This document shows positions 211 through 36,025 of a stretch of 36,025 nt of DNA, piece by piece (the stretch's first letter is position 1; each line of letters opens with the position of its first letter). The position numbers were made by a program, and so were the translations under genes. This DNA is from Planctomyces sp. SH-PL62 (GTDB lineage Bacteria; Planctomycetota; Planctomycetia; Planctomycetales; Planctomycetaceae). Location of the stretch: assembly GCA_945893075.1 (NCBI GenBank), contig CAMDDX010000032.1:1-36025 (forward strand), in the 5' to 3' direction. Under the pieces are notes generated by a model. It saw only the letters and a program-made list of their open reading frames with translations, did not search any database and was not told the origin of the DNA.

Positions 211-322
211 ACCCCACCGAGCTTGTCTCGGTGGCTCGCGGGCGTCTGCACTACGCTTTCATATCGAGTGAGTCCGCTCGTAGTGCAAAGGCCCTTTTCC
301 ACCGAGGCAAGCTCGGCGGGGT
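211..322. repeat. REPIN-like inverted pair of hairpins
   Basis: Imperfect inverted repeat: about 211-254 pairs with about 278-322. Each arm carries its own hairpin: CCACCGAG/CTCGGTGG at 214-234 with a 5-nt loop, and CCACCGAG/CTCGGCGG at 299-319 with a 5-nt loop. The copy fills the gap between the PP2C stop codon and the start of the next gene. Confidence 0.8.
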
Positions 323-327
323 TTGTG

Positions 328-1230
328 TCACTGTTCTCCGGGCGGGTTGCTGTGTTCGTCAATCGGAGGCACTTCGATGATGACCAGCGTCATGTCGTCG
401 CCGCTGCCTTGGTCCGAGTAATGATCCAACCACGCCGGAAGAGCGTCGGCGACACCACCGAAGCCGTGGTCGTGAATGCGTTGCCGAAGACTCCCGACGA
501 ATTGATCGAACGCGGTGTCATCGGCGAATGAGTTCGGCAGCCCATCCGTCGTCAACAACAACAGGCCGCCGGCGCGTCGATCCAGCGTGGCCGTTTTCCA
601 ACACACTTGAGCGTTCGGCGAACAGAGGGAATCGGTCTCCGTGCCGATGGCGAGTTCCACCGGAAACGGCCGTTCGCACTCGCCGTCGGGACGCAGCCAG
701 ACAATGTCGCCATCGCCCAATTGAGCCACGCACAGCGTCTCAGGAGTCAACAACGCGGTGAGCAGCGTCGTGCCATAACGCCGGAAGAGTGGCGATTCAT
801 CGGCTAGCTCGGTCGCAAGTTCCTGCGGCGCTGACGATGGAGCAATCACGGTGGGACAGCGTTCGCTGGCATCGGATCGGACGGCCTCACGCCAACGCCG
901 AGAGATGATTCGCGGACAGTCGCTCTTGAAGTCGCGTCGCATCTGCGCGTCCGGCGGGTCCGCGTGTCCGACGTGAAACGAGCAGAGTTCGCTCACGGCC
1001 ACTTGCACTGCCAGCGCCGCTCCAACATCGCTCAGGTCGTGCCGCGCGTCACCATGCCCATCGGCCACCGCCGCCACCAATCGCGGGCCACCACGGATCG
1101 CGCCGCTCCACAGAGCAAACGCATCCTGACACGGTTGCGAACCGCTGCGATGAGAAGCCCCTCGTCGGCTGCATCCACACGCCCAACCGACGGTCGGACT
1201 TCCCAAGGCGAAGATTTCAGGTGGCTTCAT
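328..1230 (-). CDS. PP2C-family serine/threonine protein phosphatase
   Basis: The 300-residue protein is a soluble PP2C-type metal-dependent phosphatase that would remove phosphate from Ser/Thr residues. The PP2C motifs appear in order: QDAF at 35-38, the metal-binding ADGHGDARH at 56-64, RYGTTLLTALL at 151-161, LGDGDIV at 171-177, LLTTDG at 225-230 and the C-terminal GDDMTLV at 277-283 with the last metal-binding Asp. There is no signal peptide or membrane segment. The ATG at 1230 has only a weak Shine-Dalgarno. The gene lies downstream of a TerY-like vWA gene on the same strand; that pair, with a kinase, makes up the TerY-P triad of tellurite-resistance-type systems. An operon is likely, although a 95-nt inverted repeat lies in the gap between the two genes. 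Confidence 0.88.
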   Translation of the reverse strand: MKPPEIFALGSPTVGWACGCSRRGASHRSGSQPCQDAFALWSGAIRGGPRLVAAVADGHGDARHDLSDVGAALAVQVAVSELCSFHVGHADPPDAQMRRDFKSDCPRIISRRWREAVRSDASERCPTVIAPSSAPQELATELADESPLFRRYGTTLLTALLTPETLCVAQLGDGDIVWLRPDGECERPFPVELAIGTETDSLCSPNAQVCWKTATLDRRAGGLLLLTTDGLPNSFADDTAFDQFVGSLRQRIHDHGFGGVADALPAWLDHYSDQGSGDDMTLVIIEVPPIDEHSNPPGEQ

Positions 1231-1246
1231 GGCAGCGGCACTCTTT

Positions 1247-1341
1247 TACGTAGCCGTCATCGCTCCGCGTGACGAGCCGGACTTGTGTTGCGGTATCGAA
1301 TCGCCGCTCGGCTCATCACGCGGAGCGATGATGGCTACATA
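1247..1341. repeat. Long inverted repeat between the vWA and PP2C genes
   Basis: Arms of 33 nt (1247-1279 and 1309-1341) match at 30 of 33 positions around a 29-nt spacer. All three differences are transitions. Each arm can also form a short hairpin of its own (TCATC with GATGA). It sits inside what looks like one operon. Confidence 0.9.
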
Positions 1342-1349
1342 GAAGACGC

Positions 1350-2096
1350 CTACCAGACGTCGGTGGCCGTGCCGAGAGTCGGCTCGATCGACGGCGGCGC
1401 GGGGAGTTCGACATTCGCTCCGCCAGCCTCGCCGCCACCAACCTTGCTCTTGCCGAGTGAGGCTCCCACCGAAGCGTTCACGCTCGCCCAACGGATGTAT
1501 TGCACGAGCTTCTGCGGCGTGTCCGCGTGCAAGACTCCGATTTCCGGATGACTGACGAACTTGAGCAGTTGCTCTTCGTCATAGCTGCTGTCGCCATCCG
1601 AAATCCCGATCGCCAACCGCACCGCCTTCAAACCCCACGGCTGCTTCAACAACTCAGCAATCGCCGCGTCGTACTCGGAGGCCGGATCGGTGCAGTATCC
1701 ATCCGAGATCAGAATGCACACCGGCGGCAATCCGCGCCGCGGCATTTGTTCGGCGTTCAACTCACCCGTCAACAACCGAATGGCCTGCGAGGTCGCCGTG
1801 CCACCAGCAACGGCAAGCTCCGGCCAAACGAATTGCTCGATCGGCACTGCCTTGGGACCAACATGCCATTTGGCATCGTCCGCAAAGCAAATCGCCCGCA
1901 TCGAGACTTGCACCTCCGGATGCCCACCAACCGCGTTGCGAATCTCCGGCAGCGCCTCCCGAATCGCCTGATTCAACGTGGCGATCTTCTTGCCGCTCAT
2001 CGAACCAGAACAATCCGTCAGCCAAAAGAACTGCAACGACTTGCGAGCGACCGTCCCCTCCGGGACAGGAATCGCAGGAGTGACAGCGCCAGCCAT
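1350..2096 (-). CDS. TerY-like von Willebrand factor A domain protein
   Basis: A 248-residue soluble vWA protein. The MIDAS metal site is complete: DCSGS at 28-32, Thr100 in GGTATS and SDG at 131-133. The opening FFWLTDCSGSMSG followed by IATLNQAIREALPEI is typical of TerY proteins, which act with a PP2C phosphatase and a kinase in the TerY-P triad; the PP2C gene is next downstream. I chose the ATG at 2096 because a GGAG lies 8 nt before it; the frame also stays open to a GTG at 2126, which would add ten residues without a good ribosome site. Likely cytosolic; its target cannot be told from sequence. Confidence 0.85.
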   Translation of the reverse strand: MAGAVTPAIPVPEGTVARKSLQFFWLTDCSGSMSGKKIATLNQAIREALPEIRNAVGGHPEVQVSMRAICFADDAKWHVGPKAVPIEQFVWPELAVAGGTATSQAIRLLTGELNAEQMPRRGLPPVCILISDGYCTDPASEYDAAIAELLKQPWGLKAVRLAIGISDGDSSYDEEQLLKFVSHPEIGVLHADTPQKLVQYIRWASVNASVGASLGKSKVGGGEAGGANVELPAPPSIEPTLGTATDVW

Positions 2097-2174
2097 GAGG
2101 GATCTCCGACGATTAAGAGTGATCACAACCAGCGAGAGTGTGACTGCGACGTTCGTATCGGACCACTCGCAGAC

Positions 2175-3605
2175 TCACACTAAAACTTCGTCGATCGGCT
2201 GACCGCCTTGAGAGATTTCGACCGGGCGATTGTTGTGATCGGGGACTCGTAGGTCCGGGTCGATACCAAGGCAACGATAAATCGTCGCGCAGAGATCGGC
2301 GGGACGAACCGGCTTGTCTTTCACATACGCGGCTTGCGAATCAGAGGCTCCGTAAACGGTGCCGCCGCGAATGCCGGCTCCGGCCAACAGTGAGCCGTAG
2401 CAGTTCGTCCAATGATCTCGGCCCGCGTTGCCGTTCACGCGCGGAGTGCGGCCCATCTCGCTGGTGACGACGATCAGCGTCTCGTCCAACAGGCCGCGTG
2501 CTTCGAGGTCTTGCAGCAACGCCGAATAGGTTTGGTCGAAGCCCGGCAGCTTGTTGTTTTTCAGGATGTGGAAGTTTTTCTGGTGAGTGTCCCAAGCGTC
2601 GTAATCGACGTTGACCGGCCCCCAGTACAAATCCCAAGTCACGTTCACGAAGCGCACGCCCTGCTCGATCAACCGCCGAGCAATCAGCGTCGAATTGCCG
2701 AACAGCGTGTTGCCGTAGCGATCGACCGTCTTCGGATCTTCGAGGCTGAGATCGAACGCCGTGCGGAGCTTCGAGGAAGTCAGCACGTCGAACGCTCGCT
2801 GCTGATTGCGGTCGAAGGAAGCGGTTGCGAGAGCTTGTTCCGCCTTCTGCCGCTGATCGTCAATCTGTTGCAACAACGAACGGCGCGAGTTCAAGCGATC
2901 CACAGTCATGCCGTCTTTCAACATGCTGTTCGGCAGCAACGGTGCGCCGCGCACGATCTGCGGATTACCCGGCGACGGCGCGAACGATTCTTTGTCGTAG
3001 TACGGCATGGACTCGGTCGTCAGCGGATCGAACCGCTTGCCGAGGAATCCGCCATACGGGCCGGAACGGCGAAACGCCTGGCCCCAACCCAGCCACACCG
3101 GCAGGAAAAGATAATCGGGCAGACTCTTGCGTCCGGCACTCAGATATTCGCAGACGGACCCCATGCTCGGCGGATCGGTGTCTCGCGGGTGCTGATCCGT
3201 CGGCATCAAGTCGTAGCCGGTGTAGCAGGGCAGACAGTTGTGACATCCGGCCTTGTGGTTGATCGTCCGAATGAACGCCGTGCGATGCGCCCATTGAGCG
3301 AACTGCGGCAGGTGCTCGCAGACGTCGATGCCGGGGACGTTGGAGGCGATCGGCCGGAACTCGCCGCGCGTTTCCGACGGGCCTTCCGGCTTCAGGTCAT
3401 ACATGTCCTGAGTCGCCGCGCCGCCGAGCAAAAAAATGAAGATGACGTTCTTTGCCTTCGCATGCCCGACCAGTCCCGCCTCTTCGGCCGCCAGCATCTG
3501 CGGCAGGCCAAAGCCGCCCAGCGCGGACAAGGCTCCGGCTTTCAGCGTTTCACGCCGAGTGATCCCATCGCAACATCGTCGCGGACTTCCAAGCATTGTC
3601 AGCAT
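2175..3605 (-). CDS. DUF1501 protein with Tat signal
   Basis: A 476-residue DUF1501 protein. The N-terminus has a twin-arginine motif (TRRETLKAG, 16-24) and a hydrophobic stretch ending near AA-EE at 39-42, so Tat export is predicted. Family features are the FIFLLGGAATQDMYDLKP segment, DPPSMGSVCEYL, the TSEMGRTP motif and GRDHWTNCYGSLLAGAG near the C-terminus, all typical of this alkaline-phosphatase/sulfatase-fold family. The function of DUF1501 is not established. In planctomycetes these genes usually follow a PSCyt/PSD1 (DUF1549/DUF1553) cytochrome-like gene, which is missing here. The ATG overlaps the stop of the upstream 61-codon gene, suggesting coupled translation; an ATG three codons later (3596) is also possible. 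Confidence 0.9.
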   Translation of the reverse strand: MLTMLGSPRRCCDGITRRETLKAGALSALGGFGLPQMLAAEEAGLVGHAKAKNVIFIFLLGGAATQDMYDLKPEGPSETRGEFRPIASNVPGIDVCEHLPQFAQWAHRTAFIRTINHKAGCHNCLPCYTGYDLMPTDQHPRDTDPPSMGSVCEYLSAGRKSLPDYLFLPVWLGWGQAFRRSGPYGGFLGKRFDPLTTESMPYYDKESFAPSPGNPQIVRGAPLLPNSMLKDGMTVDRLNSRRSLLQQIDDQRQKAEQALATASFDRNQQRAFDVLTSSKLRTAFDLSLEDPKTVDRYGNTLFGNSTLIARRLIEQGVRFVNVTWDLYWGPVNVDYDAWDTHQKNFHILKNNKLPGFDQTYSALLQDLEARGLLDETLIVVTSEMGRTPRVNGNAGRDHWTNCYGSLLAGAGIRGGTVYGASDSQAAYVKDKPVRPADLCATIYRCLGIDPDLRVPDHNNRPVEISQGGQPIDEVLV

Positions 3606-3784
3606 GGCTTTTGACCCTCGAATTCATGGGCTGAAGCAGTTCGAACCGCCAGTTCTCGCAGTGATGACCAAAACTCGGCCGCGACTGGCGTGGCTTGATT
3701 ATCTTGATCAGCCGCGAGCACTTGAGCCTCGATGTAATCGTAATCCGCGATTGGCTCGGACAGCTTAATCGTCAACTGTGTCAT
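3599..3784 (-). CDS. Small protein of 61 residues, translationally coupled to DUF1501
   Basis: The ATG at 3784 is preceded by GGGAG at a good distance. The stop codon overlaps the start of the DUF1501 gene within ATGCTGA. The product starts MTQLTIKLSEPIADY, a beta-strand-like opening reminiscent of ribbon-helix-helix antitoxins, but the rest (AADQDNQATPVAAEFWSSL) lacks a convincing RHH helix pair, so this may be a diverged or decayed antitoxin or something unrelated. No toxin gene is adjacent. The overlap and ribosome site make real translation likely; function unknown. Confidence 0.55.
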   Translation of the reverse strand: MTQLTIKLSEPIADYDYIEAQVLAADQDNQATPVAAEFWSSLRELAVRTASAHEFEGQKPC

Positions 3785-3859
3785 GGATCGCTCCCAATTT
3801 CCCAAACCAACGACTTCAGTCTCCAACAGACTCTTCAAGTTGTCCAGCCGGAAACAGGG

Positions 3860-4645
3860 CTACGATCGCCGCCGCAGAATGAGTACTACGTCCTGCGTCA
3901 TCGGCCCAATCGTTACCGGCTGCTTCAGGTCGTAGGCGAAATCATACGTCGCGACGTGTTCGAGTTCCGGGACTCGCGACAACAAGTCAAGCATCTGGGT
4001 TGCCGTGTAAGTTCGGTAGTGCATCTCGTCTTCGATCCGAAAATGCTTCGACGGCATCCAGATGTCGAGCGTCATGCCGAGGTATTCCATCCGGCCTTTG
4101 CGATCGACTCGCTTGGACCACATGCGCGAGTTGACCTGCACATGCCCGCGCCGCGCGATCCACGATTCTTCATCATCGTGCGGGCCGCGAGTCGGCAGCA
4201 GGTGCAAGCCGAGCGCATAGATTCCGCCGGGAGAGAGCGCCGTCGCCATGCACTTCAAATGAGCCTCGGCAGTCGCTTCGGTTGGTAGATGCCGAAACGT
4301 GTTGATCGTGTTGAATGCGGCATCGACCGGTTGCTTGAGTTGGAAGTCGGCCATGTCCCCGACGGTCACGCTCTTGGCGAAGCCATGTTTGCGCAACCGC
4401 TCGTTGCAGTACGCGACCGCCTTCTCGTTGAGGTCGTTGCCGCTGACCTTGTACTCAGCCTTCGCGAATTGCAGCAGCAAGCGGCCAGTCCCGCAGGCCG
4501 GCTCGAAGAGCTTGCGAACCTTGCGAGTTGCGTGACGCTCGAAGCAGCCGCGCAAGAAATGAAACTCAGCCCGCCAGTCTGAGCCGAACAGCAATTCGTA
4601 ATACTGTGGGAAGTCGTAGATGCTGGCTTGGATGGTGTCGGGCAT
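3860..4645 (-). CDS. Class I SAM-dependent methyltransferase
   Basis: A 261-residue soluble protein with a Rossmann-type SAM-binding fold. Motif I is EPACGTGRLL at 48-57, followed by an acidic GNDLNEKAVAYC segment that would hold the ribose hydroxyls and GDMADFQLKQPVDAAFNTINTFRHL as motifs II/III. The substrate cannot be read from the sequence. The start DTIQASIYDFPQYYELLFGSDW is typical of a group of small-molecule methyltransferases with Y-D-x-P-x-Y openings. It is followed 75 nt downstream by the 61-codon gene and then DUF1501, so these three may share a transcript. Confidence 0.85.
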   Translation of the reverse strand: MPDTIQASIYDFPQYYELLFGSDWRAEFHFLRGCFERHATRKVRKLFEPACGTGRLLLQFAKAEYKVSGNDLNEKAVAYCNERLRKHGFAKSVTVGDMADFQLKQPVDAAFNTINTFRHLPTEATAEAHLKCMATALSPGGIYALGLHLLPTRGPHDDEESWIARRGHVQVNSRMWSKRVDRKGRMEYLGMTLDIWMPSKHFRIEDEMHYRTYTATQMLDLLSRVPELEHVATYDFAYDLKQPVTIGPMTQDVVLILRRRS

Positions 4646-4709
4646 GAGGGGAGGGATTTGGGGTTGGGGATTAGGGGCTGGTGTAGTGACGCCGAGTTCG
4701 AGTGAATGA

Positions 4710-4772
4710 TCAGCCGCAGGGCGCTAGCCCCGGTTTGTAGGGATCGAACCGGGGCTAGCGCCCTGCGGCTGA
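4710..4772. repeat. Perfect inverted repeat, 26-bp arms
   Basis: Arms 4710-4735 and 4747-4772 are exact reverse complements around an 11-nt loop. Each arm contains GGGC and GCCC separated by GCTA. It lies just after the stop of the BatA-like gene and upstream of the methyltransferase, so it could end or attenuate readthrough, but no T-tract follows. Confidence 0.97.
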
Positions 4773-4787
4773 TTTACGGGACAGAGC

Positions 4788-7076
4788 CTAGAGCAATCGC
4801 ATCGCCGTCCAGATCGCGGCGAGTGCGAGCGAGAGAATCGCGAACACGGCACCCACGGTAAAGCGCCACGCGAGAGCTTGTTCGATCATCAAGAGGGCTA
4901 GCACAGCGGCGAGGAGGTTGATCGTCAGCGAATGCGCGTCCGGTTCGGAGTCATCGGAAGCTGCGACTGTCGGTGAGTTCGCGTCGCGGACGACGATCCC
5001 GTGGCCTTGTTCGTCCCCATGCGACGTGGACCACTCCCGCGGGTCGAGCCGTCGCGGATCACTCTCACGCGGATCGACGTTGATTGCGAACCGAAGTGAC
5101 GCCGCCCCGCTCGCCAACGTGTAGAGGCCGGGGCGGAGCGTGTCGTTGATGACGATCATTGATCGACCGTCGCGATCCACTGGCGTCAGCGTGCGCGTGA
5201 CTCCATCCGGCGTCGTCAGCGGGACGCTCGTCGAGCCGTTGGGAACTTCGAGCTGCTCAAATTCGCCGACGAGCGATTCGCGCGGTTGTGAGCGTCCCGT
5301 GGCGGCGTACTCGGTCAGTTCATGGATCAATGGCACGAACCCCGCCGCCCAGATGGCCCATTCGCCCCACGTCTCGTCGAGCGACGTTGTCACCAGCACG
5401 CAGCGGCCTCGGCCGAGTCCGCCATCGGTGGACGTCACGATCGCCGGGTCGCCGTTCGAGAATCGCAGCGCGACGTCGTGGCCGCCCCCCCGCGGCGGGG
5501 CTGCGTCGGCCACGGTGCGCACGTATTGCCGAATGAGCGCGGTCTCTAAACCGGCTCCGGGATTGCCTCGAAACTCGCGCAGCAGCGGATGCGTGAAGTC
5601 GCCAGGGTCGAAGCCGAACGCGGAGGGAGTGCCATCGTCGTTCGTGCTCGTGACGACTTCGTTCAATCGCAACGACATCAGTCCGCGCGGACCGAACGCG
5701 ACTTCATTGAGCTTCTCAATCGAGACCGTCGGGCCAAGCGACACGATCACTCCGCCGCCGTTCTCCGCGAAGCGTCGCAGACGTTCGACATCCAGCTCGG
5801 CCAACGTGCCGACATCGCAGAGAAAGACGACGTCATGCCGATCGAGTTCGACGTTCGGCAGTTCAGAGTCCGGCACAGTCGTGACCCGCAGCCAGCGCGC
5901 ACTCGCCGCGCGATCGGTCGTCTTCGGAGACAATGCTTGTTCGACGAAGAACGTTGCCGCCTCGCGCGGCCGGGCCGAGGGACGGCCATTAACCAGCAGC
6001 ACGCTCAGTTCCGATCGCACGCTCAACGCCAGCCAGCGTTCGTTGTCGCCGAGCAATGAATCCTCTTCCAGTCGCACCGACAACGAGTGCTCGCCCGACG
6101 CCGGCGCGGTCAGCGTGAACTCAACGGTCGCATCTTGGCCGAGCGGCAAATCGACACGTCGCGAGTCCGCCAGTTGCTCGTCGATGCGCAACTCAACTCG
6201 CCGCGCGGTGAGCGGCACGGTCCCGGCGTTGCGGAGTGTTGCGGTCACGGACATGGGTTGCTCGGCTGCGAGGATCGGCGGATCGGTGGTCAGGCCGACG
6301 ATCGCGGCGTTGTCCGGCAACGCGGCTCCGACGTCGATGAGCACCAATTCGTGGGGCAGGTTTCCAACCTGCCCGTCCAGTCCGGGCAGGTTGGAAACCT
6401 GCCCCACGGTCCAATTCTCCGCTTGGAAATCGGAGATCACGATGACCTCACAACGTTCGCGCGGCTGCTTGGCGGCGATCAATTCGGAGAGTTGCCGCAG
6501 AGTCGCCGCGACATCGCCACGCTCGAACGTCAGCGGCAGCCGGTCGATTTCTTCGAGCACCGCACTCGCCACCAGCGTCGGCTGTCGGATCAACAGACGC
6601 GGCTCCGAGCCGGAAATGCGGGCCAGTGCGAAGCGGTCGCCAGAATGACTCTTCTTGACGATGTCGCGCGCGATCACCTTGCCCGCTTCAAACAACGCCG
6701 CCGCCGCGTTGTCGGTGTTGCTGGTGGCTTTGCGGCCCATGCTCAGCGACGCATCCAGCACGATCACTCGCAACGTCGGCGGTGTGACTCCCGCGAGCTT
6801 GCCGGCATCCACCCAGCGTGGCCGCGCCAACGCGAACACGATCAGCGCCAGAATCAAAACTCGCGCCGCAAGCAACAGCAATTGCTCCAGCCGAGTCCGC
6901 CGCGATTGCTTGCGAGCCGCCGCATGCAGGAACTGCATCGCCGCCCACGAGACTTCGCGGTAACGGCGGCGAAACAGCCAGTGAATCAACACCGGCACGA
7001 CCGCTAACGCCAACCAACCCAATAAGGCGGGACTGGCGAAGCCGAAGGCGAGCAGATTGAGCGAGGATGCGATCAC
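4788..7076 (-). CDS. BatA-type vWA membrane protein carrying an in-frame repeat
   Basis: About 762 residues. The N-terminus is the BatA signature (FGFASPALLGWLALAVVPVLIHWLFRRR), then a second membrane helix after RRTRLEQ, a vWA domain with DASLSM at 108-113, a long extracytoplasmic part, and two C-terminal helices ending at AAIWTAMRLL. Such proteins usually accompany MoxR ATPase and DUF58 genes; neither is here. I prefer the GTG at 7076, which places the family signature near the N-terminus; the frame is open upstream to 7199, but that part is translated repeat DNA (7115-7207). There is no clear Shine-Dalgarno. Residues about 224-242 (VGQVSNLPGLDGQ and VGNLPH) are encoded by a 57-bp palindromic repeat inserted without shifting the frame. 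Confidence 0.85.
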   Translation of the reverse strand: MIASSLNLLAFGFASPALLGWLALAVVPVLIHWLFRRRYREVSWAAMQFLHAAARKQSRRTRLEQLLLLAARVLILALIVFALARPRWVDAGKLAGVTPPTLRVIVLDASLSMGRKATSNTDNAAAALFEAGKVIARDIVKKSHSGDRFALARISGSEPRLLIRQPTLVASAVLEEIDRLPLTFERGDVAATLRQLSELIAAKQPRERCEVIVISDFQAENWTVGQVSNLPGLDGQVGNLPHELVLIDVGAALPDNAAIVGLTTDPPILAAEQPMSVTATLRNAGTVPLTARRVELRIDEQLADSRRVDLPLGQDATVEFTLTAPASGEHSLSVRLEEDSLLGDNERWLALSVRSELSVLLVNGRPSARPREAATFFVEQALSPKTTDRAASARWLRVTTVPDSELPNVELDRHDVVFLCDVGTLAELDVERLRRFAENGGGVIVSLGPTVSIEKLNEVAFGPRGLMSLRLNEVVTSTNDDGTPSAFGFDPGDFTHPLLREFRGNPGAGLETALIRQYVRTVADAAPPRGGGHDVALRFSNGDPAIVTSTDGGLGRGRCVLVTTSLDETWGEWAIWAAGFVPLIHELTEYAATGRSQPRESLVGEFEQLEVPNGSTSVPLTTPDGVTRTLTPVDRDGRSMIVINDTLRPGLYTLASGAASLRFAINVDPRESDPRRLDPREWSTSHGDEQGHGIVVRDANSPTVAASDDSEPDAHSLTINLLAAVLALLMIEQALAWRFTVGAVFAILSLALAAIWTAMRLL
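6351..6407. repeat. Perfect REPIN-like palindrome inside a coding region
   Basis: Arms 6351-6374 and 6384-6407 are exact 24-nt reverse complements around a 9-nt loop. Each arm is also a hairpin, GGGCAGGTT with AACCTGCCC around 3 nt. Total length is 57 nt (19 codons). It belongs to the same family as the copy at 10040-10110, which is intergenic. Confidence 0.97.
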
Positions 7077-7114
7077 GGTGAAGCCGTTCGTAGAGAATGA
7101 CGTTGCACGAACGC

Positions 7115-7207
7115 AATGGAAAATGAGAAATGGAGAATGAAAAATGCAAAATGCTTTGCCCCGCCATTCATTTTGCATTTTCCATTTCTCATTTCTCATT
7201 TTCCATT
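7115..7207. repeat. A/T-rich long inverted repeat between divergent genes
   Basis: Arms of 39 nt (7115-7153 and 7169-7207) match at about 35 positions around a 15-nt spacer. The left arm is made of words such as AATGGAAAATGAGAAATG and has only A, G and T except one C. Its composition differs sharply from the GC-rich surroundings. It separates the BatA-like gene from the divergent DUF1501 gene. Confidence 0.93.
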
Positions 7208-7267
7208 ATTGCCCTCTGACAAGACCACCGGTTGACCGGCGCGGGTCCGCTTGTTTTGCTTCACGCC

Positions 7268-8749: not shown

Positions 8750-8751
8750 CC

Positions 8752-8784
8752 GGCTGATGGCTGTCGGCTGAAAGCTGATGGCTG
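8752..8784 (+). repeat. Short direct repeat
   Basis: GGCTGATGGCTG (8752-8763) is followed by AGCTGATGGCTG (8773-8784) in the 65-nt gap between the DUF1501 gene and the hydrolase gene. Simple tandem words built on GCTGATG; no role seen. Confidence 0.6.
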
Positions 8785-8814
8785 TTATCTCAACTCTTTC
8801 CGAAAGACTGATTC

Positions 8815-9552: not shown

Positions 9553-9553
9553 T

Positions 9554-9617
9554 TGTGGCGCACGCGGCTCGCGTGCGTCGATTTCATCAGATTCGCACGC
9601 GAGCCGCGTGCGCCACA
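9554..9617. repeat. Perfect REPIN-like palindrome, 24-bp arms
   Basis: Arms 9554-9577 and 9594-9617 are exact reverse complements around a 16-nt spacer. Each arm is itself a hairpin, CGCACGCG with CGCGTGCG around GCT. It begins one base after the stop of the hydrolase gene and ends 7 nt before the archease ATG, filling the gap. Confidence 0.97.
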
Positions 9618-9624
9618 GGCAACC

Positions 9625-10035: not shown

Positions 10036-10039
10036 GTTC

Positions 10040-10110
10040 GTGGGGCAGGTTTTCAACCTGGCCGTGCGAGATCGGTCATTCGGGCCGGGCAGGTTGAAAA
10101 CCTGCCCCAC
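10040..10110. repeat. REPIN-like palindrome between convergent genes
   Basis: Arms 10040-10063 and 10087-10110 (24 nt) match at 23 positions around a 23-nt spacer. Same family as 6351-6407: each arm folds as GGGCAGGTT with AACCTGCCC. It fills the gap between the archease stop (10035) and the stop of the convergent epimerase gene (10112), so it could act as a two-way terminator. Confidence 0.96.
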
Positions 10111-10111
10111 G

Positions 10112-11497: not shown

Positions 11498-11540
11498 CAG
11501 CGCCTCGTTCACAATCAATGGAGTGGCACGCTCAGAACGA

Positions 11541-11638
11541 GGGGTCGGGTGTTCGGTTTTTCGGAATTGGCGGGGCGACGCGTGGATTGCAAACGAAGCT
11601 TCTTCCCGCCAATTCCGAAAAACCGAACACCCGACCCC
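11541..11638. repeat. 98-bp inverted-repeat element, family B
   Basis: Arms 11541-11574 and 11605-11638 are exact 34-nt reverse complements around a 30-nt spacer. The ends read GGGGTCGGG outward and GGAATTGGCGGG inward. The same arms recur exactly at 24125-24224 and a related form at 25743-25840. It lies between the divergent epimerase and DUF1501 genes. Confidence 0.98.
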
Positions 11639-11835
11639 GGCCCTGGGAGGTATCACCGCAGCCTCGGACGTGGATTCACCGTATCGGGCGGATCGTATCG
11701 GCCGAGTTGCGAAACTCGACCGGCGGAAGCGGTTCTTACAGCGGGTCTCGGCTTGCTGGTGCCGATTTTCACCGATAGCATCGGCCCCCCTTGATGCCTT
11801 CCGTTGTAGGCTTCGTGAATCACGGAGTTCCCACC
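11639..11835 (+). other. Gene-free leader before the third DUF1501 gene
   Basis: Between the family B element and the ATG at 11836. It holds two short hairpins (CGAGTT with AACTCG near 11703, and CCGAT/ATCGG at 11772-11784). No convincing promoter boxes were recognised. Confidence 0.4.
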
Positions 11836-13352: not shown

Positions 13353-13534
13353 CCCTGGAGTGCGGCGGCTTGACGCCGCCCTCCATTCGATCACGGCGGT
13401 TGACGTTCCGAATGTCGCAGACTTGATCGTGAGAATTCACACGGGACGCGATTCGTCACGCCGGCGTTGGTGAAACATCCAATGCGAACTCCCGCTATCA
13501 ATGGAGGGCTGCGTCGAGCCACAGCACTCCAGGG
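13353..13534. repeat. Inverted pair of hairpins, family C, 112-nt spacer
   Basis: Arms of 35 nt, 13353-13387 and 13500-13534. Left arm hairpin: GCGGCG with CGCCGC around GCTTGA; right arm, read on the other strand: GCTGTG with CGCAGC around GCTCGA. It runs almost from one stop codon (13350) to the next (13536) of two convergent genes. Family partner: 19790-19958. Confidence 0.95.
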
Positions 13535-16398: not shown

Positions 16399-16466
16399 GT
16401 AGCCAATCTCGCCAGAGATTGGGGACCACGAGTGTCGACACCCCAAGCTCTGGCGAGCTTGGCTAC
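16399..16466. repeat. REPIN-like palindrome with compensatory changes
   Basis: Arms of 26 nt (16399-16424 and 16441-16466) match at 24 positions around a 16-nt spacer. The left arm folds as CCAATCTC/GAGATTGG, the right as CCAAGCTC/GAGCTTGG. The two differences between the arms pair with each other inside each arm (T-A versus G-C). It separates the divergent DUF6922 and nadD genes. Confidence 0.96.
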
Positions 16467-17150: not shown

Positions 17151-17209
17151 ATTCGCGCTCCATTTGATTCGCGCGGCAAGTTTCCGCGCGAATCAAATGG
17201 AGCGAGAAT
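17151..17209. repeat. Near-perfect inverted repeat between convergent nadD and typA
   Basis: Arms 17151-17176 and 17184-17209 (26 nt) match at 25 positions around a 7-nt loop. It lies between two converging stop codons and has the form of a large stem-loop that could end transcription from both sides, although no long T-tract follows. Confidence 0.96.
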
Positions 17210-19675: not shown

Positions 19676-20203
19676 GATCAAACCTTCCGAAATCTCATTG
19701 GGCACATTGAATGATGTGACTCGAACAAGCGGCTCGGAAGTTAGTCTCAAACACGAAATCGCGAATAGACAGATTTGATTTCGGAGTCCCCCTGGAGTGC
19801 TGCGGCTCGACGCAGCCCTCCATTCAATTGGAATAAAGACGTTGAATGTGAAGGAAACGTCCGATGCTCAGCCGAGATTTCGTGGCGACGGTTTTTGAAA
19901 CTTTGAGTATCGATATTTCAAATGATGGAGGGCGGTGTCGAGCCACCGCACTCCAGGGAAACCGCTGATTTCTCGACGTGTCGGCTATCGCGATCAAAAT
20001 CTTGAAAGCCGTCTTGACCCTTTCGAGAGGCTTGCCATACACACCCGCCCCCACGCAACTGGCCGCTTTGAAAACGACTCTACGAAATCAGTTCGCGTGT
20101 CACTTCTCGATGCCTCTCTGACACAGTTCCGTGTCCTTCCGACAAGCCGTTCGTCCGAGCGAATTTTTTCCTCGCCCCACTTCGCCCTCAACAGGATGGT
20201 GCC
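19676..20203. other. Intergenic region between divergent genes, about 530 nt
   Basis: Holds the family C inverted repeat (19790-19958). The rest (19959-20203) should contain the promoter of the YTV-like gene; AGGA lies 8 nt before its ATG. I recognise no clear -35/-10 pair and no small gene. Confidence 0.5.
19790..19958. repeat. Inverted pair of hairpins, family C, 99-nt spacer
   Basis: Arms of 35 nt, 19790-19824 and 19924-19958. Left hairpin GCTGCG/CGCAGC; right, on the other strand, GCGGTG/CACCGC; both around GCTCGA. Same family as 13353-13534. The spacer sequences of the two copies are not obviously related. Confidence 0.95.
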
Positions 20204-21772: not shown

Positions 21773-21862
21773 CTTCGCACACGGATGCGAGAGGCGCACA
21801 CGGATGGAGGCGGGGCGACTGACTCCTTGATCCGTGTGCGCCTCTCGCATCCGTGTGCGAAG
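21773..21862. repeat. Perfect inverted repeat, 33-bp arms
   Basis: Arms 21773-21805 and 21830-21862 are exact reverse complements around a 24-nt spacer. Within each arm the word CGCACACGGAT occurs twice as a direct repeat. It lies between the terminator and the glmS promoter. Confidence 0.97.
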
Positions 21863-24124: not shown

Positions 24125-24224
24125 GGGGTCGGGTGTTCGGTTTTTCGGAATTGGCGGGCACCAAGCTTGGTTTGCAAATGAAACGTCGTCCCCGCCAATT
24201 CCGAAAAACCGAACACCCGACCCC
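24125..24224. repeat. 100-bp inverted-repeat element, family B
   Basis: Arms 24125-24158 and 24191-24224 are exact 34-nt reverse complements, identical to the arms at 11541-11638. The 32-nt spacer resembles the reverse complement of the spacer there (shared TTGCAAAC-AAGCTT), so the element is inverted relative to that copy. It ends 20 nt before the PilM-like ATG. Confidence 0.98.
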
Positions 24225-24244
24225 GTTCTAGGACGGAATAAATT

Positions 24245-25735: not shown

Positions 25736-25742
25736 ATTGTCC

Positions 25743-25840
25743 GGGGTCAGGCACCGCAGAATTCAGAATTGGCGGAATCGAGCTGTGTGTTGCCAGAACA
25801 CTCTGCTCCGCCAATTCTGAATTCTGCGGTGCCTGACCCC
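25743..25840. repeat. 98-bp inverted-repeat element, family B variant
   Basis: Arms 25743-25776 and 25807-25840 are exact 34-nt reverse complements around a 30-nt spacer. Arm ends match the other family B copies (GGGGTC outside, GAATTGGCGG inside) while the middle differs. It lies between the PilM-like and PilO-like genes, 7 nt after the stop of the first. Confidence 0.97.
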
Positions 25841-25858
25841 TGCTTCAGAGGTCATCCC

Positions 25859-27589: not shown

Positions 27590-27614
27590 CCTGACTCTCC
27601 AAGTCGGGTTCTTT
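27590..27614 (+). terminator. Possible weak terminator
   Basis: CCTGACT (27590-27596) pairs with AGTCGGG (27602-27608, one T-G wobble), followed by TTCTTT, directly after the stop codon. Confidence 0.4.
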
Positions 27615-27685
27615 CTGAGGCGTCTCGCTGATCCCGACAGCGGCAAATGGGCACTTGCGCAAGAATTCTCGAATTGATTTGCATG

Positions 27686-27877
27686 AGCACCAAAGGTGGG
27701 TGACTCGATAGCCCAGGCCAACGGCCTGGGGCAAGTTTTCGACAACATGCCCTCAGCCCCAACGGGGCGTGACTCGAACTCACCACTCGGAGTTTCGCCC
27801 CGTTGGGGCTGGAAATTGATCGGGTCCACATCCCCAGGCCGTTGGCCTGGGCTATCGAGTCACACACCTTCGGTGCT
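27686..27877. repeat. Nested double REPIN-like inverted repeat
   Basis: Outer arms 27686-27731 and 27832-27877 (46 nt) match at 44 positions; their inner 32 nt are exact. Inside them a second perfect pair of 16-nt arms lies at 27754-27769 and 27796-27811. Each outer arm carries two hairpins (CACC/GGTG and CCCAGGCC/GGCCTGGG), each inner arm one (GCCCC/GGGGC around AAC or GTT). Confidence 0.97.
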
Positions 27878-28151
27878 GAAACAGTTCACTCGGCCTCATC
27901 GAGAGATTTCCGTATTGAGACGACCCGACTCAGAGAGTCAGGCTACTGGCAACACAGGCAAGCTGCGAAGTTTGCTGTGATCACCGCCGACATTTCCGAT
28001 CCGGTTTGTCTCACCGGCATGTGAAACTTTGCCGATAACAAAGAGATGACGGGTCGTGTCGATCCCGGAGGGTGCGCGGAGCGTGCCGCCGGAAATCGCC
28101 GCCACGCAGACAATGACGTCTGCGAATTGGCCCATCGGCAAGGAGGCTGCC

Positions 28152-31100: not shown

Positions 31101-32432
31101 TTCAATCGCAGCAACATCGCCAGCGGCACGGGAATCACCGGAATTCAGAACATTACGCAGCAGATCATTCAACTCACCCAGAGCACCACGACCTCGGTAA
31201 CACCGGGGACCGGAGCCACGACGACCACAACCACCATCACGCCGCAATCTCTACAGACATCCACACCGAACGTCGTTGGTTCACCAGGGTTCCTCTTCAA
31301 TACCGCAACGCAGGGCAACAATATCTCGGCACCGAATCCCGGCCAGGTTGGCTCGCAAGGGCTGAGCAACTTCTCGGTCGGTCGCACGAACGGCAATCTC
31401 GGATACGGAGGACTCGTTTTGTCGGCGGGGTCCGAATCGGTCAATGTTTTATTGCGTGCATTGTCCTACTCTCGGAAACTGGAAATCCTTAGCCGACCAC
31501 AGATCCGTACGCTCGACAGCCAATTGGGCACGATCAACGTCGGCAAAATCGTGCCGGTTGTGAACGGCATCACGGCGAGCGGCATCGCCGGACAATTTAC
31601 GCCGCAGATTATCCGTGATCCGTCGGGCATCTTGTTAGAGGTCACTCCGCGCATCACGCCGGATGACCGCATCGTCATGCAAGTCCATGCGGAGCGTAGC
31701 GAGTATGACACGTCCGCCACGGGAAGTGTGCAACTTGTCGCTGCCTCACCGGGGTCCGGTCCAATCACATCTCCGACGAAAATCATCAGCACGGCGTTGA
31801 CCACCGTCTCGGTTGCCAATGAGCAAACGATCGTGCTCGGCGGCTTGATCCAAAAGACGGACGATCGAATCACTCGAAAAGTGCCGTGGCTGGGCGACAT
31901 CCCAATCATTGGCCAAGCGTTTCGATTCGATTCGCAGTCCATGCGACGCACCGAATTGTTGATCTTCCTGACCCCGCGAATCGTCAAGAACAACAGTGTG
32001 TCAGAGATCATCAAGCAGATCGAATCCGAGCGTCTGCACTACACCGAGTGTGAGGCCGAAGCATTGCACGGTCCCTTGTTCGGTATTCCCGAATCTCCGT
32101 CCGACGGTTCTATCCCGCCGGTCTATTCGCCGGGAGAACTGTGGAATCCCAAGAATTCCACTCCGACCCCGCCTCTGCCAGCACCGACCGAGAAAGTGCC
32201 CCCGCCGTCTCGCAGCAATGCGCCGCGCGTGCTGCCAGTGCCGCCGATGAACGATGAGCCTGCCAGTGACGTTCAGGGCGCGAGCTATCAACAACTCAGT
32301 AACCATAATCGAACAAATACTCCGCCGATCGTCCGAACCAATTCCACCGGTTCCACAAAGTCCGCGGGAAAATCGACGATCTTGGACACGTTCCGGCGAG
32401 AGAAGGTCTCGGCCGGCAATCGAGGTCAGTAG
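28152..32432 (+). CDS. Giant secretin (GspD/PilQ family)
   Basis: About 1426 residues; most GspD are 650-750. Outer-membrane channel of a type II secretion or pilus-type system. Start TTG 28152 has AGGAGG 5 nt upstream and gives the signal peptide (RLIGVGLTAITCSLSMWHAEFLSA). An N0-like domain lies at about 28390-28610, then about seven N1-like modules (roughly 28845, 29165, 29580, 29818, 30090, 30465 and 30765), separated by Pro/Lys/Gly/Gln-rich linkers. The secretin core is 31015-31990 and ends with VPWLGDIPIIGQAFR, the family signature. A Pro-rich tail follows. Genes for the ATPase and GspF/GspG are not in the window. Confidence 0.9.
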   Translation: MKPRRLRLIGVGLTAITCSLSMWHAEFLSAEVKLFGKKAGKPAAAQPVVAEQAAADALLSNGTLPVSDDKHLNPGDKQIKLNYFSKTWGDVMRDVAQQSGRQLIIDKVPPGRFSRSDWSRYSLNDAVKILNRDLEPKGFRILERGQYLDLVFLRDARSEYARPVVGAVREEVEPNNTSDAPPRKLPTRDATASAPKTANPRRNSMIQQVAHDEMDDDDGQEEELDLSETPRRWVAVTLKHQTARNLSRSLYQAFEQDAELIEQGPNGLPGFVVWKDAPAANRGPAASRLPKAAPKRLARFAIGVDTKGDRLLIDGPPTEVAAIKNLVMKLDIVSNAGDSSVRLVSTKRDPRQVTQTLNSAIKQLAQARAAESTDDTELAQAETPAKPKAKKNAKKKAESKPAAPTNPADPKQPSEAAEMEAPSNKPNSPSISGPLKGDVTVEELNDVLILRGNEADVEAVMRLIEQIESMLAGSVPDVNVRPLTYVDGESMADLLTTVYERLNRSRGRSATDQTQQIVVIAIGKPNAVMVLASERDMPTVDMLIKKLDQPIDPTNEFEVFRLRYAVASQVLTAIDSFFSGTTTGGTGGQATTPGTTSRSTTGGLRGRVKTISDARTNSVIVQARPRDLEEVRRLIEELDQVGSKSVNQIKLIPLKNAVADDMATLLNLALQSVISPPQQARATQGGAQGGAQGGGGAAGGQVDTKLREAKSAVLQLLDTEDGEAMVESGILADIRINSDPHTNSLVVTAPEESLALIQALVKRFDKPSSMVAEIKHFTLRNADASSIVTMLNTLFNNQQQQGQGQRGGGQQNQQLGIQLSGAEDASSQLIPLKFSTDIRTNSIIAVGGAEALSVVEAIILRLDASDARQRTMTVFRLKNSPAQEVATAITLFLQGQQNLVGQGNQDLVSDVEQLERQIVVVAEVNSNSLLISATPRYLKDISEMIERVDAAKPEVVIQALLVEVTLDNTDEFGVELGFQDSILFNRSNIASGTGITGIQNITQQIIQLTQSTTTSVTPGTGATTTTTTITPQSLQTSTPNVVGSPGFLFNTATQGNNISAPNPGQVGSQGLSNFSVGRTNGNLGYGGLVLSAGSESVNVLLRALSYSRKLEILSRPQIRTLDSQLGTINVGKIVPVVNGITASGIAGQFTPQIIRDPSGILLEVTPRITPDDRIVMQVHAERSEYDTSATGSVQLVAASPGSGPITSPTKIISTALTTVSVANEQTIVLGGLIQKTDDRITRKVPWLGDIPIIGQAFRFDSQSMRRTELLIFLTPRIVKNNSVSEIIKQIESERLHYTECEAEALHGPLFGIPESPSDGSIPPVYSPGELWNPKNSTPTPPLPAPTEKVPPPSRSNAPRVLPVPPMNDEPASDVQGASYQQLSNHNRTNTPPIVRTNSTGSTKSAGKSTILDTFRREKVSAGNRGQ

Positions 32433-32467
32433 CCCTACGAAGGTACTCAGGGGTGAAAGAACGAATT

Positions 32468-33379
32468 ATGGATCGATTCCGCCAAAAAAGTTTGCGTTCG
32501 GGATGCGGTGCTCTGTTGCTCGCACTTTTCATCGCATTGCTGATCGTACCGGGCTGCACCACTCCCAGTTTGCTATCCAAACTGACTCACCGCGGAACCT
32601 TTCCCAAAGCAACTGCCGAGAACCCGGCAGTGCGCTGTCTATGCTTGTGGGACGCTTCCGAAGGGACCGGCGTGGACAACCTGCCGGCTCGCGGCGTGTC
32701 CGGCCAGATTTTCTTTTTCACTCGAGGCAACGTCTCGTCGGTCGAAGTGGACGGTGACGTGCGCATCTTTCTGTTCGATGACCACGGTTCGCCTGAGGAA
32801 CAAACCCAGCCACTACACCAATTCGATTTTTTGGCTGGCTCGTGGAAGGCACAACTGACCTCCACGCAATTTGGTCCGGCGTATCAATTGTTTGTGCCCT
32901 ATTCACGCAAAGGACATCACCAGACGGAGCTTGCACTTCGCGTGCGACTCATACAGCCACATAGTCCTCCGGTGTTTTCAAACGTCACCAAAGTGACTTT
33001 GCCCGGCTACGACGCCGCTAAAGCTAAGAGTGCGGCCGAAGGGTATGAACCAGAGAAGCTGCATCGAGACGAGACGGCCAGCGACAACTTTAGTCGCATG
33101 GATCGCATCACTCCGGACAAGATTGCAGAGACCTTCCTCCAAATTCGTGCCGAACGCGGAGAACCAGTTAGCTCGACGACACTTTCCGGCGCTGAGACGT
33201 CGATCAATCCCCGCTACCAACGGCCCGCCCGTCGAGGATCTGCCCGATCCGACAACGAATCTGATGGCGAGTTCAATGTGGATGACGAGCCCAATGACGC
33301 CTCAGATCGCCCGGTGCGTCGACACCTTCGACAAGTTCCGCACACAGTAGAAGAGGATGTCTCTGAGGACGAGGAATAG
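32468..33379 (+). CDS. Predicted lipoprotein of the secretin operon
   Basis: About 303 residues. N-terminal signal with lipobox (LLLALFIALLIVPGC, Cys about 30), then a segment rich in beta structure (GQIFFFTRGNVSSVEVDGDVRIFLFDD, WKAQLTSTQFGPAYQLFVPYS) and a charged, disordered tail ending EEDVSEDEE. I do not recognise the family. It is 35 nt behind the secretin gene and could be its pilotin-like or accessory lipoprotein, by position only. GTG 32453 is an alternative start with AGGT upstream. Confidence 0.7.
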   Translation: MDRFRQKSLRSGCGALLLALFIALLIVPGCTTPSLLSKLTHRGTFPKATAENPAVRCLCLWDASEGTGVDNLPARGVSGQIFFFTRGNVSSVEVDGDVRIFLFDDHGSPEEQTQPLHQFDFLAGSWKAQLTSTQFGPAYQLFVPYSRKGHHQTELALRVRLIQPHSPPVFSNVTKVTLPGYDAAKAKSAAEGYEPEKLHRDETASDNFSRMDRITPDKIAETFLQIRAERGEPVSSTTLSGAETSINPRYQRPARRGSARSDNESDGEFNVDDEPNDASDRPVRRHLRQVPHTVEEDVSEDEE

Positions 33380-33494
33380 TTCGACCCTCTTTTCTGGTGG
33401 CATCTCAACCGCGAAAGGTTAGGATGCCCCGCGTCGATGAAGCAGGTCAAAGACCTTCTGAAACTGCCGACTCTCCGATCTTGAGGACGTGACC

Positions 33495-34250
33495 ATGCGA
33501 CAACACACGAAATCCGCAGTGAGACTTTTGGCGGCGACCGTTGCTTGCGGACTGTTCTCGCAAACGGCGTCGGCTCAATTCAGCAGCACGACGCGCACCG
33601 GCAGCTCATCGGGCAACGCGCTCACTAGCGGCAGCCCGGCATCCGCCGGAGGTGCCGGAGCCACCAGTGGCTTCGGTGGCGGTGGAGCGGCCGGCGGGGC
33701 CGCCAACGGTTCCGTCGGTGGCAACAACGCCGCGAATCGCACGGCCGGAACCGGTCAAGCCGCGTTGGGGCAGTCACTGTTTACTCAGGGCAACAATCAA
33801 AACGCTTTCATCGGCGGACGCAATCAACAGCAGGGTTTCGTCGGCGGCAACCAGCGCACCGGCCAGCAGCAAAACAACCGGCAGCAGCAACAAAATAACC
33901 GCCAAAACAACAACAACCAGAACGACTTCAACAACCAGAACGGCCAAGGACAGCAGAATCAGGATCCGAAACGCGCGATCCGCCCGCAGTTCAGAGTCGC
34001 CTTCGATGAGCTGCCGAGACCGACCACCGAGATTCGCTCCACGCTGCAACCCCGGTTCGACACTTTGAGTCAAACTCCGGCGCTGCGCGGCGTAACTTAC
34101 GAGCTAGACGCCGAAGGTGTAGTCGTGCTTCGCGGAACTGTGGACACACCTTCGCAAAGACGGCTCGCCGAAAACGTCGTGAAGCTGGAACCGGGCGTGA
34201 AGAAAGTCCGCAACGAACTGACGCTGAACGAACCGGCCGCGACGAAGTAG
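33495..34250 (+). CDS. Exported BON-domain protein with Gly/Asn/Gln-rich linker
   Basis: About 251 residues. Signal peptide to about TASA-QF (residue 28), then a long low-complexity segment rich in Gly, Ser, Ala and later Asn/Gln (residues about 30-160), and a C-terminal BON domain (TYELDAEGVVVLRGTVDTPSQR, then VVKLEPGVKKVRNELTL). BON domains bind membranes or envelope components and are typical of periplasmic proteins such as OsmY. AGGA lies 7 nt before ATG 33495; a GTG at 33489 is two codons upstream. It ends the plus-strand run after the secretin. Confidence 0.85.
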   Translation: MRQHTKSAVRLLAATVACGLFSQTASAQFSSTTRTGSSSGNALTSGSPASAGGAGATSGFGGGGAAGGAANGSVGGNNAANRTAGTGQAALGQSLFTQGNNQNAFIGGRNQQQGFVGGNQRTGQQQNNRQQQQNNRQNNNNQNDFNNQNGQGQQNQDPKRAIRPQFRVAFDELPRPTTEIRSTLQPRFDTLSQTPALRGVTYELDAEGVVVLRGTVDTPSQRRLAENVVKLEPGVKKVRNELTLNEPAATK

Positions 34251-34299
34251 AGAACTCGTGCGACCAGGTTTCATCTTCTTATCGGGCTGCGCGCATTTC

Positions 34300-34403
34300 G
34301 TAGGGTGGGACAAGCTCGCTTCGAGCGCCGGCCCACCAGCATCAGAATGAACGTGCAGAAAAAATGGTGGGCCGGCGCTCGAAGCGAGCTTGTCCCACCC
34401 TAC
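34300..34403. repeat. Perfect inverted repeat, 39-bp arms
   Basis: Arms 34300-34338 and 34365-34403 are exact reverse complements around a 26-nt spacer. Each arm folds as GGTGGG/CCCACC outside and GCTCG/CGAGC inside. It lies between the convergent BON and sulfatase genes. Confidence 0.98.
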
Positions 34404-34448
34404 ATTGGATTGCGACTTGCCGTTCAACGAGTTGATCGCGTCTGCCGC

Positions 34449-35918
34449 TCATTCAGGTATCGGGTCATTCCGTCGGATAGTCTTGCCTTCCCAGACCGCT
34501 TCGTCCGTGTCGCTGTCGAAGGTGAGCACGCGATGCTCGCTCCCCTTTGCAGGCGGGACGTCGATCTTCGGCAGCCAGCGGCGATGCTCGGTGATGATCG
34601 CGGAATGTTCTGGTTTTGCAGCGAGGTTCGTCCATTCGTGCGGATCGGCTCGCAGGTCGTAGAGTTCCTCGCTGCTGTCGGCGTAACGAATGTAGCGCCA
34701 GCGTTCGCTGCGGATGCCATGATTGCCTCGGTTGTGCGATGTGATCGCGGGCCGCTCGCGCTTGGCGTTCACGTCTTTGAGTTGCGGCGACAGGCTGAGA
34801 CCTTCGAGATCGGTGCGACTCGTCAGGCCACACAGTTCAATGAGCGTCGGATAGATGTCGAGCAGTTCCGCAGGCTGAGTACAGCGGCCACCGCGACTCA
34901 CACCAGGACCGGCGAAGATCAGCGGCACGCGCGTGCCGCGATCCCACAACGTGTTCTTGCCGGTGATCCCCTTCTCGCCGAGATGCCACCCGTGATCGCC
35001 CCACAACACGACGATCGTGTTCTCGCTGAGTCCCGCTTCATCGAGCGCCTGCATGATGCGGCCAACCTGCGCGTCGACGAAGCTCGTACACGCAAGGTAC
35101 GAGCGAACCAGATTCCGCCACTGCTGGTTGTCTTGAACCCACTTCAGCCGTGGCTCGGGAAGATTCCAATGCAGATACCACGAGAAGCGTGGCGTGTCGT
35201 CACGATCGTTCTCCTTCACAACCGGCAGCACGCTGTCGTCGTCGGGATACAGATCGAACCACTTCTGCGTGGCGTAACACGGAACGTGTGGCAGAAAGAA
35301 TCCAGCCGCGAGAAAGAACGGCTGGTCCTGCGGCGCGGATTGGATTTGCTCGACCGCCCAGCTTGCGACTTGATAGTCCCCTTTGTCTTCGTCCCGGTGC
35401 GGAAAGACGCCCCAGTCCATCAGCGGATGATTGCCCATCGGCGCTGGTGGAATCAGCTTCTTCGCTGGCTTCGCGCCGATCCCTCCCGCCGAGCCCCACA
35501 CATCGAACTCCTTCGCCCGCTGCTGCGGCCCGCCGACTCCGCCGTGATGAATTTTTCCGGCGGTCAGCGTCCGATACCCGTGTGCTTTGAAGTGCTGCGG
35601 CAGAGTGACTCGGTCTTTCCACTCATCGAGCGTCCGAAACCACGGAGCCAATCCGTAAACGCCCGTCGTCGTCGGCCGCAGGCTGAGCATCAAACTCGTG
35701 CGCGAGGGATTGCACAGCGGAGCCTGACAATGCGCGTTGAGGAACAACGTCCCGCGCTGCGCCAACTTGTCGATGTGCGGAGTCTTCGCCAACGGATGCC
35801 CCCCCATCGTGCCGATCCAATCGTTCTGATCGTCGATCGCGATGAACACCACGTTGGGCTTCTCAGCGGCGAACGACGTGCCGGCGATAAGGACGAGAAT
35901 CAGTGCGAGTTGTTTCAT
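34449..35918 (-). CDS. Secreted sulfatase (iduronate-2-sulfatase-like)
   Basis: A 489-residue sulfatase with an N-terminal signal peptide (MKQLALILVLIAGTSFA-AE). The metal-binding IAIDDQNDW opens the fold; LCNPSRTSL holds the Cys that would be turned into formylglycine (Cys-x-Pro-Ser-Arg); GKIHHGG, FFLPHVPCY and LWGDHGWHLGEKG give the other active-site residues. The pattern is that of iduronate-2-sulfatase-type enzymes, probably for sulfated polysaccharides, acting after export. ATG 35918 is the start; the frame further upstream is translated repeat. AGGA lies about 14 nt upstream. Confidence 0.93.
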   Translation of the reverse strand: MKQLALILVLIAGTSFAAEKPNVVFIAIDDQNDWIGTMGGHPLAKTPHIDKLAQRGTLFLNAHCQAPLCNPSRTSLMLSLRPTTTGVYGLAPWFRTLDEWKDRVTLPQHFKAHGYRTLTAGKIHHGGVGGPQQRAKEFDVWGSAGGIGAKPAKKLIPPAPMGNHPLMDWGVFPHRDEDKGDYQVASWAVEQIQSAPQDQPFFLAAGFFLPHVPCYATQKWFDLYPDDDSVLPVVKENDRDDTPRFSWYLHWNLPEPRLKWVQDNQQWRNLVRSYLACTSFVDAQVGRIMQALDEAGLSENTIVVLWGDHGWHLGEKGITGKNTLWDRGTRVPLIFAGPGVSRGGRCTQPAELLDIYPTLIELCGLTSRTDLEGLSLSPQLKDVNAKRERPAITSHNRGNHGIRSERWRYIRYADSSEELYDLRADPHEWTNLAAKPEHSAIITEHRRWLPKIDVPPAKGSEHRVLTFDSDTDEAVWEGKTIRRNDPIPE

Positions 35919-35961
35919 GGCAGATCGAATTTCCTCACGTTCCCAGTTCGTTCCGCTTGAT

Positions 35962-36025
35962 CCGCGGCCGTGTCTGAATCCGTGGGGTGAAAAGCGACAC
36001 CCCGCGGATTCAGACACGGCCACGG
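35962..36025. repeat. Inverted repeat at the right edge
   Basis: Arms 35962-35989 and 35998-36025 (28 nt) match at 26 positions around an 8-nt loop. It may continue beyond the window. It lies upstream of the sulfatase gene. Confidence 0.9.

Follow-up and report, generated by a model that had tools for sequence, protein, structure and literature searches.

The 36-kb stretch analysed here (36,025 nt; the window) is contig C32 of the 7.57-Mb, 484-contig assembly of a freshwater bacterium, genome G000, assigned to Planctomyces sp. SH-PL62. It carries 18 long inverted repeats, which we consider, with a probability of about 0.8, to belong to numerous co-resident families of short mobile palindromes that are non-autonomous and moved in trans by Y1 (HUH) transposases. 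Two kinds are recognisable: REPINs, in which two repetitive extragenic palindromic (REP) hairpins stand inverted, each with an outer GTAG or GTGG foot, and terminal inverted repeat (TIR) elements, whose arms start with GGGGTC and have no such foot. Both kinds would most likely be mobilised by small Y1 enzymes of the RAYT/TIRYT/IS200 group whose genes lie outside the window. Such enzymes are expected to act on single-stranded DNA and to leave no target duplication. Copies would settle in permissive gaps, namely intergenic DNA and protein linkers, and loss and replacement would be fast enough that sister species have few copies in common.

A repeat search and our own scan placed inverted repeats at all 18 positions that an earlier reading of the letters (the original prediction) had listed, and 30 dinucleotide shuffles of the window yielded zero repeats in 27 cases and one in three. 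The scan (10-base seed, arms of at least 20 nt, identity of at least 0.85) recovered 17 of the 18; element 211 required a 9-base seed and a laxer identity. Arms are perfect in eight elements (4709, 6350, 9554, 11541, 21773, 24125, 25743 and 34300). By eye, 16 elements are intergenic, one lies at the contig end (35962) and one inside a gene (6350); four (7115, 11541, 16399 and 19790) are flanked by divergently transcribed genes. To place these in the genome, elements with arms of at least 22 nt were counted in a sample of 41 stretches totalling 807 kb: the window, 31 unselected 20-kb stretches and nine chosen ones (eight with Y1 hits and one with a copy of family F17). The sample, 11% of the genome, held 274 elements, with at least one in every stretch; the 31 unselected stretches held 199 in 620 kb. 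Scaled up, this would give approximately 2,400-2,600 for the genome.

These elements fall into many families. Average linkage of the 274 elements gave 55-90 clusters, the number varying with the cut-off, and at each of four cut-offs 33-35 of them had at least three members; single linkage gave 65, with 31 of at least three members. The 18 window elements form 15 clusters (average linkage, cut-off 0.5), close to the 14 or so families originally predicted, and the three arm sequences said to recur within the window do so, in the pairs 6350/10039, 11541/24125 and 13353/19790. Nor are the arms single-copy: 13 of the 18 have family members in the sample, the others being 9554, 17151, 21773, 27686 and 35962. 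Sample clusters reach 22 members (that of 16399) and 13 (that of 6350 and 10039), 9554 being single, and the 211 sequence has 39 matches genome-wide, counting itself and both strands.

Arms were sorted into four classes. A hairpin with a GTAG or GTGG foot was found in 88 of the 274 elements (19 clusters), a GGGGTC start in 38 (6 clusters) and a hairpin with another foot in 72. The remaining 76, many of them built of direct repeats, lack a hairpin by a simple test; this is an upper figure, because some, such as ATCAGCCGCAGGGCGCTAGCCCC, resemble imperfect hairpins by eye. In the window the GTAG/GTGG foot was seen by eye in 1242, 6350, 9554, 10039, 16399 and 34300. The earlier proposal of one or several unusually diverse REPIN-like systems was thus largely right as to diversity and as to there being several systems, and too broad in its label: REPIN suits the GTAG/GTGG families but not the GGGGTC arms, which belong to TIR elements, nor the hairpin-less elements (at most 76 of 274), nor the 27686 type, which is tied to an IS200-like gene. 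Among the 26 families with at least four members, the two arms of an element agree at 0.89-1.00 on average, a figure raised by the 0.82 detection threshold, and arms of different copies at 0.63-0.94. Mean spacer identity between copies exceeded the value for shuffled spacers by 0.05-0.14 in 11 of the 26 families, including F5, F6, F16 and F17, and by less than 0.05 in the other 15. The spacers of Pseudomonas REPINs, too, are described as variable (PMC3116915).

Y1 genes lie beside some of these families. A PF01797 search returned eight hits in the genome, seven above the family cut-off and none on C32, in line with the predicted absence of a local enzyme. A copy of a dispersed family lies no more than about 120 nt from six of the eight, a different family each time; contig ends truncate the other two, on C303 and C212. 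The Y1 gene on C42 has the GACTCGAWAGCCCAGGGC type on both sides, with confirmed arms and a core common by eye to window element 27686; those on C203 and C147 are flanked on both sides by GGGGTCGGGTCTACG and GGGGTCAGGTGTTCTG, respectively. One arm of the 211 family lies just downstream of the C127 gene, and TTGGAGTGCGGCAGCC, with a further copy on C15 (L240), adjoins that on C190. The RAYT-like gene on C35, at a contig start, has the 34300 family on one side. Arms of window families, those of 211 and 34300 among them, accompany Y1 genes on other contigs. All eight hits were matched by NCBIfam RAYT or IS200 models, three over the cut-off: the IS200/IS605 transposase model for C42 and C303, and that of the REP-associated tyrosine transposase (RAYT; 97.8 bits against a cut-off of 80) for C35. 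HUH and tyrosine motifs were seen by eye in seven of the eight open reading frames (ORFs). C35 shows the HUH part only and its match ends at model position 89 of 146, so this gene looks broken. The C203 gene contains in frame a copy of its own flanking F5 GGGGTC element (L052:11445-11544), a 35-residue insertion relative to the C147 homolog, just after the motif YIHLNPCRA.

Element density varied with Y1 number. With the same detector, density was 3.39 per 10 kb in G000 and lay between 0.43 and 5.38 across nine sister species, a twelvefold range, and Y1 hits across these ten genomes ranged from 0 to 16, the highest number being in a sister. Y1 count and density were correlated (Spearman rho 0.91, 10 species; 0.86 after genome size by rank); G001 (15 Y1 hits) and G008 (4) were left out. 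Because the species share ancestry and orthology guided the choice of sister stretches, the p value of 0.0002 is too optimistic. Five genomes of other genera gave 0 to 1.1 elements per 10 kb (80 kb each), and a 50-kb stretch of E. coli K-12 gave none.

Few elements recur at orthologous sites in other species. For 50 elements of the window and four other stretches, intervals of up to 400 nt either side were compared with up to nine sister species; stretch L028, with few orthologs, was left out of the site counts. Among 250 site-by-species comparisons the same family was recognisable in 20, another family was present in 93, the site was empty in 72 and neither applied in 65. The figure of 20 understates sharing, because the other-family class holds, at two or more sites, probable same insertions with diverged arms (W:6350 and L037:10906, five rows each). 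At least one sister was empty at 27 of the 50 sites, and G010 retains seven of 45 elements; aligned blocks between species were mostly 80-93% identical. The elements thus do not keep conserved positions even within the genus. In the window, the site of 4709 was empty in six of eight sisters compared, 17151 was found again in G010, and 9554 was found in G007 and G010, with other families at its place in G003, G005, G006 and G009. At L017:9772-9875, within a 789-codon open frame, some species carry a REPIN, another a GGGGAGT-repeat palindrome and a third a CCCTCTCCC palindrome.

Exact direct repeats (2 to 8 nt) at the flanks showed no excess over chance in 272 elements (200 permutations); with mismatches allowed, they were found at three of the 272 and at none in each of five permutations. 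This bears on the proposal that the elements are miniature inverted-repeat transposable elements (MITEs) of DDE transposases, that is, of ordinary insertion sequences. Non-coding sequence, inverted ends, multiple copies and empty sites would all suit it, but the target-site duplications it calls for are at chance level and the genes found beside the repeats are Y1 genes, though DDE genes were not searched for; we consider it highly improbable. Very unlikely, too, is a role as host RNA or terminator structures selected at gene ends, with the sequence of the palindromes drifting while pairing is kept. Most window elements are intergenic by eye, and arms had changed less than spacers at 10 of 14 presumed vertical ortholog sites, too few to be firm. 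However, four window elements lie between divergent genes and one inside a gene, dispersed sites have arm families in common, and 72 of the 250 orthologous comparisons were empty. The one candidate target-site duplication is an 11-nt imperfect direct repeat flanking the REPIN at L037:1176-1243; empty-site sisters carry one copy of it, which is unusual for Y1-type insertion.

Two further proposals concern change in place. A new REPIN might replace an old one at the same feet: 9554, L037:3817, 6821 and 1486 hold different families across species with near-identical edges. Yet, in variable intervals between aligned blocks, a sister element was present in 46 of the 141 with a G000 element and in 16 of the 55 lacking one (p 0.73), and offsets were within 3 nt on the left in five of the 46, on the right in one and on both sides in none. 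This control does not support same-feet replacement but is not decisive, since it omits sites spanned by an aligned block, including those that had suggested such exchange. Because sister occupancy is similar with or without a G000 element, different families at one place are mostly as saturation of permissive gaps predicts, and we regard same-feet exchange as unlikely. Somewhat less doubtful, as a tentative proposal, is correction of one arm by the other through template switching in a long hairpin, so that both change together. Its best case is 6350 (below), and other sites do not show the same pattern: single changes outnumbered complementary double changes by 60 to 5 on the G000 side and by 42 to 9 on the sister side, totals that include probable non-orthologs (L021:14798 with G003 and L017:15786 with G010). 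General concerted evolution of arms was accordingly rejected.

Several points weigh against mobilisation by Y1 enzymes. Five of the hits (C212, C127, C203, C147 and C190) fall short of the cut-off of the RAYT model that they match, and only six families, of more than 30, are tied to a Y1 gene. A GTAG foot is present in just one of these six, that of 34300, which lies next to a truncated-looking gene. None of the hairpin-less families was found beside the eight Y1 genes. The correlation of Y1 number with density rests on related species and fragmented metagenome-assembled genomes, and G011 has five elements in 46.7 kb with zero Y1 hits. Mobilisation in trans by Y1 enzymes nevertheless appears the most probable explanation; catalysis by the enzymes found here and a single-stranded route are inferred, and the hairpin-less families may or may not use the same enzymes.

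Element 6350 sits in a variable linker after SDFQAENW of the encoded protein, which is probably VWA/BatA-like. In nine sisters the corresponding segment measures 59 nt, as here, in six, and 62, 43 and 29 nt in one each; an inverted repeat passed the detector in five, with different arms. In the seven sister rows whose length is similar, 33 double changes relative to G000 were counted, 29 of them still complementary, alongside 23 single-arm changes. The species-specific arm was searched for in seven genomes (one mismatch allowed; assemblies 89-91% complete): among the four with a match it was private to the site in three (G005, G009 and G010) and had one further match in G006. In homologs from other genera the linker sequence is unrelated. 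A second F3 REPIN (L049:1779-1880) likewise lies in frame, in a large ORF (636-3053, minus), and encodes GHVSNVPG/GHVENVPH repeats.

Table 1. Inverted repeats of the window, with coordinates in the 36,025-nt stretch.
Coordinates	Strand	Description
211..322	.	inverted repeat, 24-nt arms, F17 type, no GTAG foot
1242..1346	.	inverted repeat, 38-nt arms, CGTAGCC close to outer end, F31
4709..4773	.	inverted repeat, perfect 27-nt arms, ATCAGCCGCAGGGCGCTAGCCCC family, cluster of 15 in sample
6350..6408	.	REPIN, GTGG foot, F3, perfect 26-nt arms, in frame within gene 4788-7199 (minus)
7115..7207	.	inverted repeat, F15, built of direct repeats resembling AATGNAAAATG; arm hairpin not found
9554..9617	.	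REPIN, GTGG foot, perfect 24-nt arms
10039..10111	.	REPIN, GTGG foot, F3
11541..11638	.	TIR element, F5, GGGGTCGGGTGTTCGG arms, 34 nt perfect
13353..13534	.	inverted repeat TGGAGTGCGGCGG, F2
16399..16466	.	REPIN, GTAG foot, F1, cluster of 22 in sample
17151..17209	.	inverted repeat, ATTCGCGC direct repeat within each arm
19790..19958	.	inverted repeat TGGAGTGCTGCGG, F2
21773..21862	.	inverted repeat, CGCACACGGAT direct repeat within each arm
24125..24224	.	TIR element, F5, GGGGTCGGGTGTTCGG arms, second copy in window
25743..25840	.	TIR element, F11, GGGGTCAGGCACCGC arms, 34 nt perfect
27675..27888	.	element 27686: nested inverted repeats, GTGACTCGATAGCCCAGG type, outer arms 57 nt
27754-27775/27790-27811		inner pair of element 27675..27888
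34300..34403	.	REPIN, GTAG foot, F26, perfect 39-nt arms
35962..36025	.	inverted repeat, 28-nt arms; ends exactly at contig end

The element kinds resemble systems described elsewhere. Inverted REP hairpin pairs, the GTAG/GTGG foot, variable spacers and families beside Y1 genes recall the REPIN/RAYT system of Pseudomonas and Stenotrophomonas (PMC3116915, PMC3686654). In contrast to that system, Y1 hits number eight here and as many as 16 in one sister, IS200-like genes included, with several foot types and few sites shared between sisters. Across 63 fluorescent pseudomonads, 22 REP classes were reported; strains had an average of two to three RAYTs and never more than four (PMC3686654). RAYTs are described as single-copy genes, inherited vertically, that replicate REPINs very slowly (PMC8049555). 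Another report covers TIR elements with a GGGGWSAS motif, REPs located inside genes, and families with GTAG or CGTC, Planctomycetes being among the groups in which these families occur (PMC3733652). The long perfect arms starting GGGGTCAG or GGGGTCGG, which flank the Y1 genes on C147 and C203, resemble the TIR elements of TIRYT genes in that report; GGGGTCAG arms match GGGGWSAS, whereas GGGGTCGG arms differ at position 7, and six clusters occur here in the sample of one genome. The in-frame palindrome at 6350 is akin to the intragenic REPs and Rickettsia palindromic elements of the same report, but has a GTGG foot where those have CGTC, and its arm sequence varies among sister species at the same site. 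The IS200-like gene on C42, between dispersed hairpin copies of the GACTCGAWAGCCCAGGGC type, resembles in layout, and may belong to, class 3 TnpA with atypical repeats and a CnGA foot, found mainly in Planctomycetes (PMC6006769). A title-level literature search on Planctomycetes REP/MITE and on REPIN turnover found no report on these genomes. As the element kinds are already described, the unusual part is the number of co-resident families and their turnover within one genus. With 0-16 Y1 hits, a twelvefold range of density and few shared elements, this genus makes both the link between enzyme and element and the rate of turnover directly measurable, and offers a natural setting well suited to testing how these elements spread.

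Other types have arms of two direct repeats, about 14-19 nt apart by eye: ATTCGCTG, ATTCGTC, ATTCCTCTG, GGTGAAAAATG and CGCACACGGAT. The ATTCGCTG family forms an 81-nt unit of constant length in 23 of 25 fetched copies. In many copies (L214-L238) this palindrome is by eye the core of an element of about 300 nt with ends like those of the 211 family, a palindrome within a palindrome. The ORFs around two of its five copies on C15 look by eye like genes for sulfatases and an esterase, and this inspection, made without a family search, showed no transposase among them. It is conceivable, if rather doubtful, that the genus also holds mobile palindromes with arms of two direct repeats in place of hairpins, moved by a further enzyme and able to form the inner part of a larger element with F17 ends, and, besides these, long palindromes that rewrite both arms together in place. 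The arm CTAACCCGAAGCGTCAGCGAGGG was found nearly unchanged (L151, L153) in G018, a genome of 72% GC from another genus of the family, which suggests very old or transferred families.

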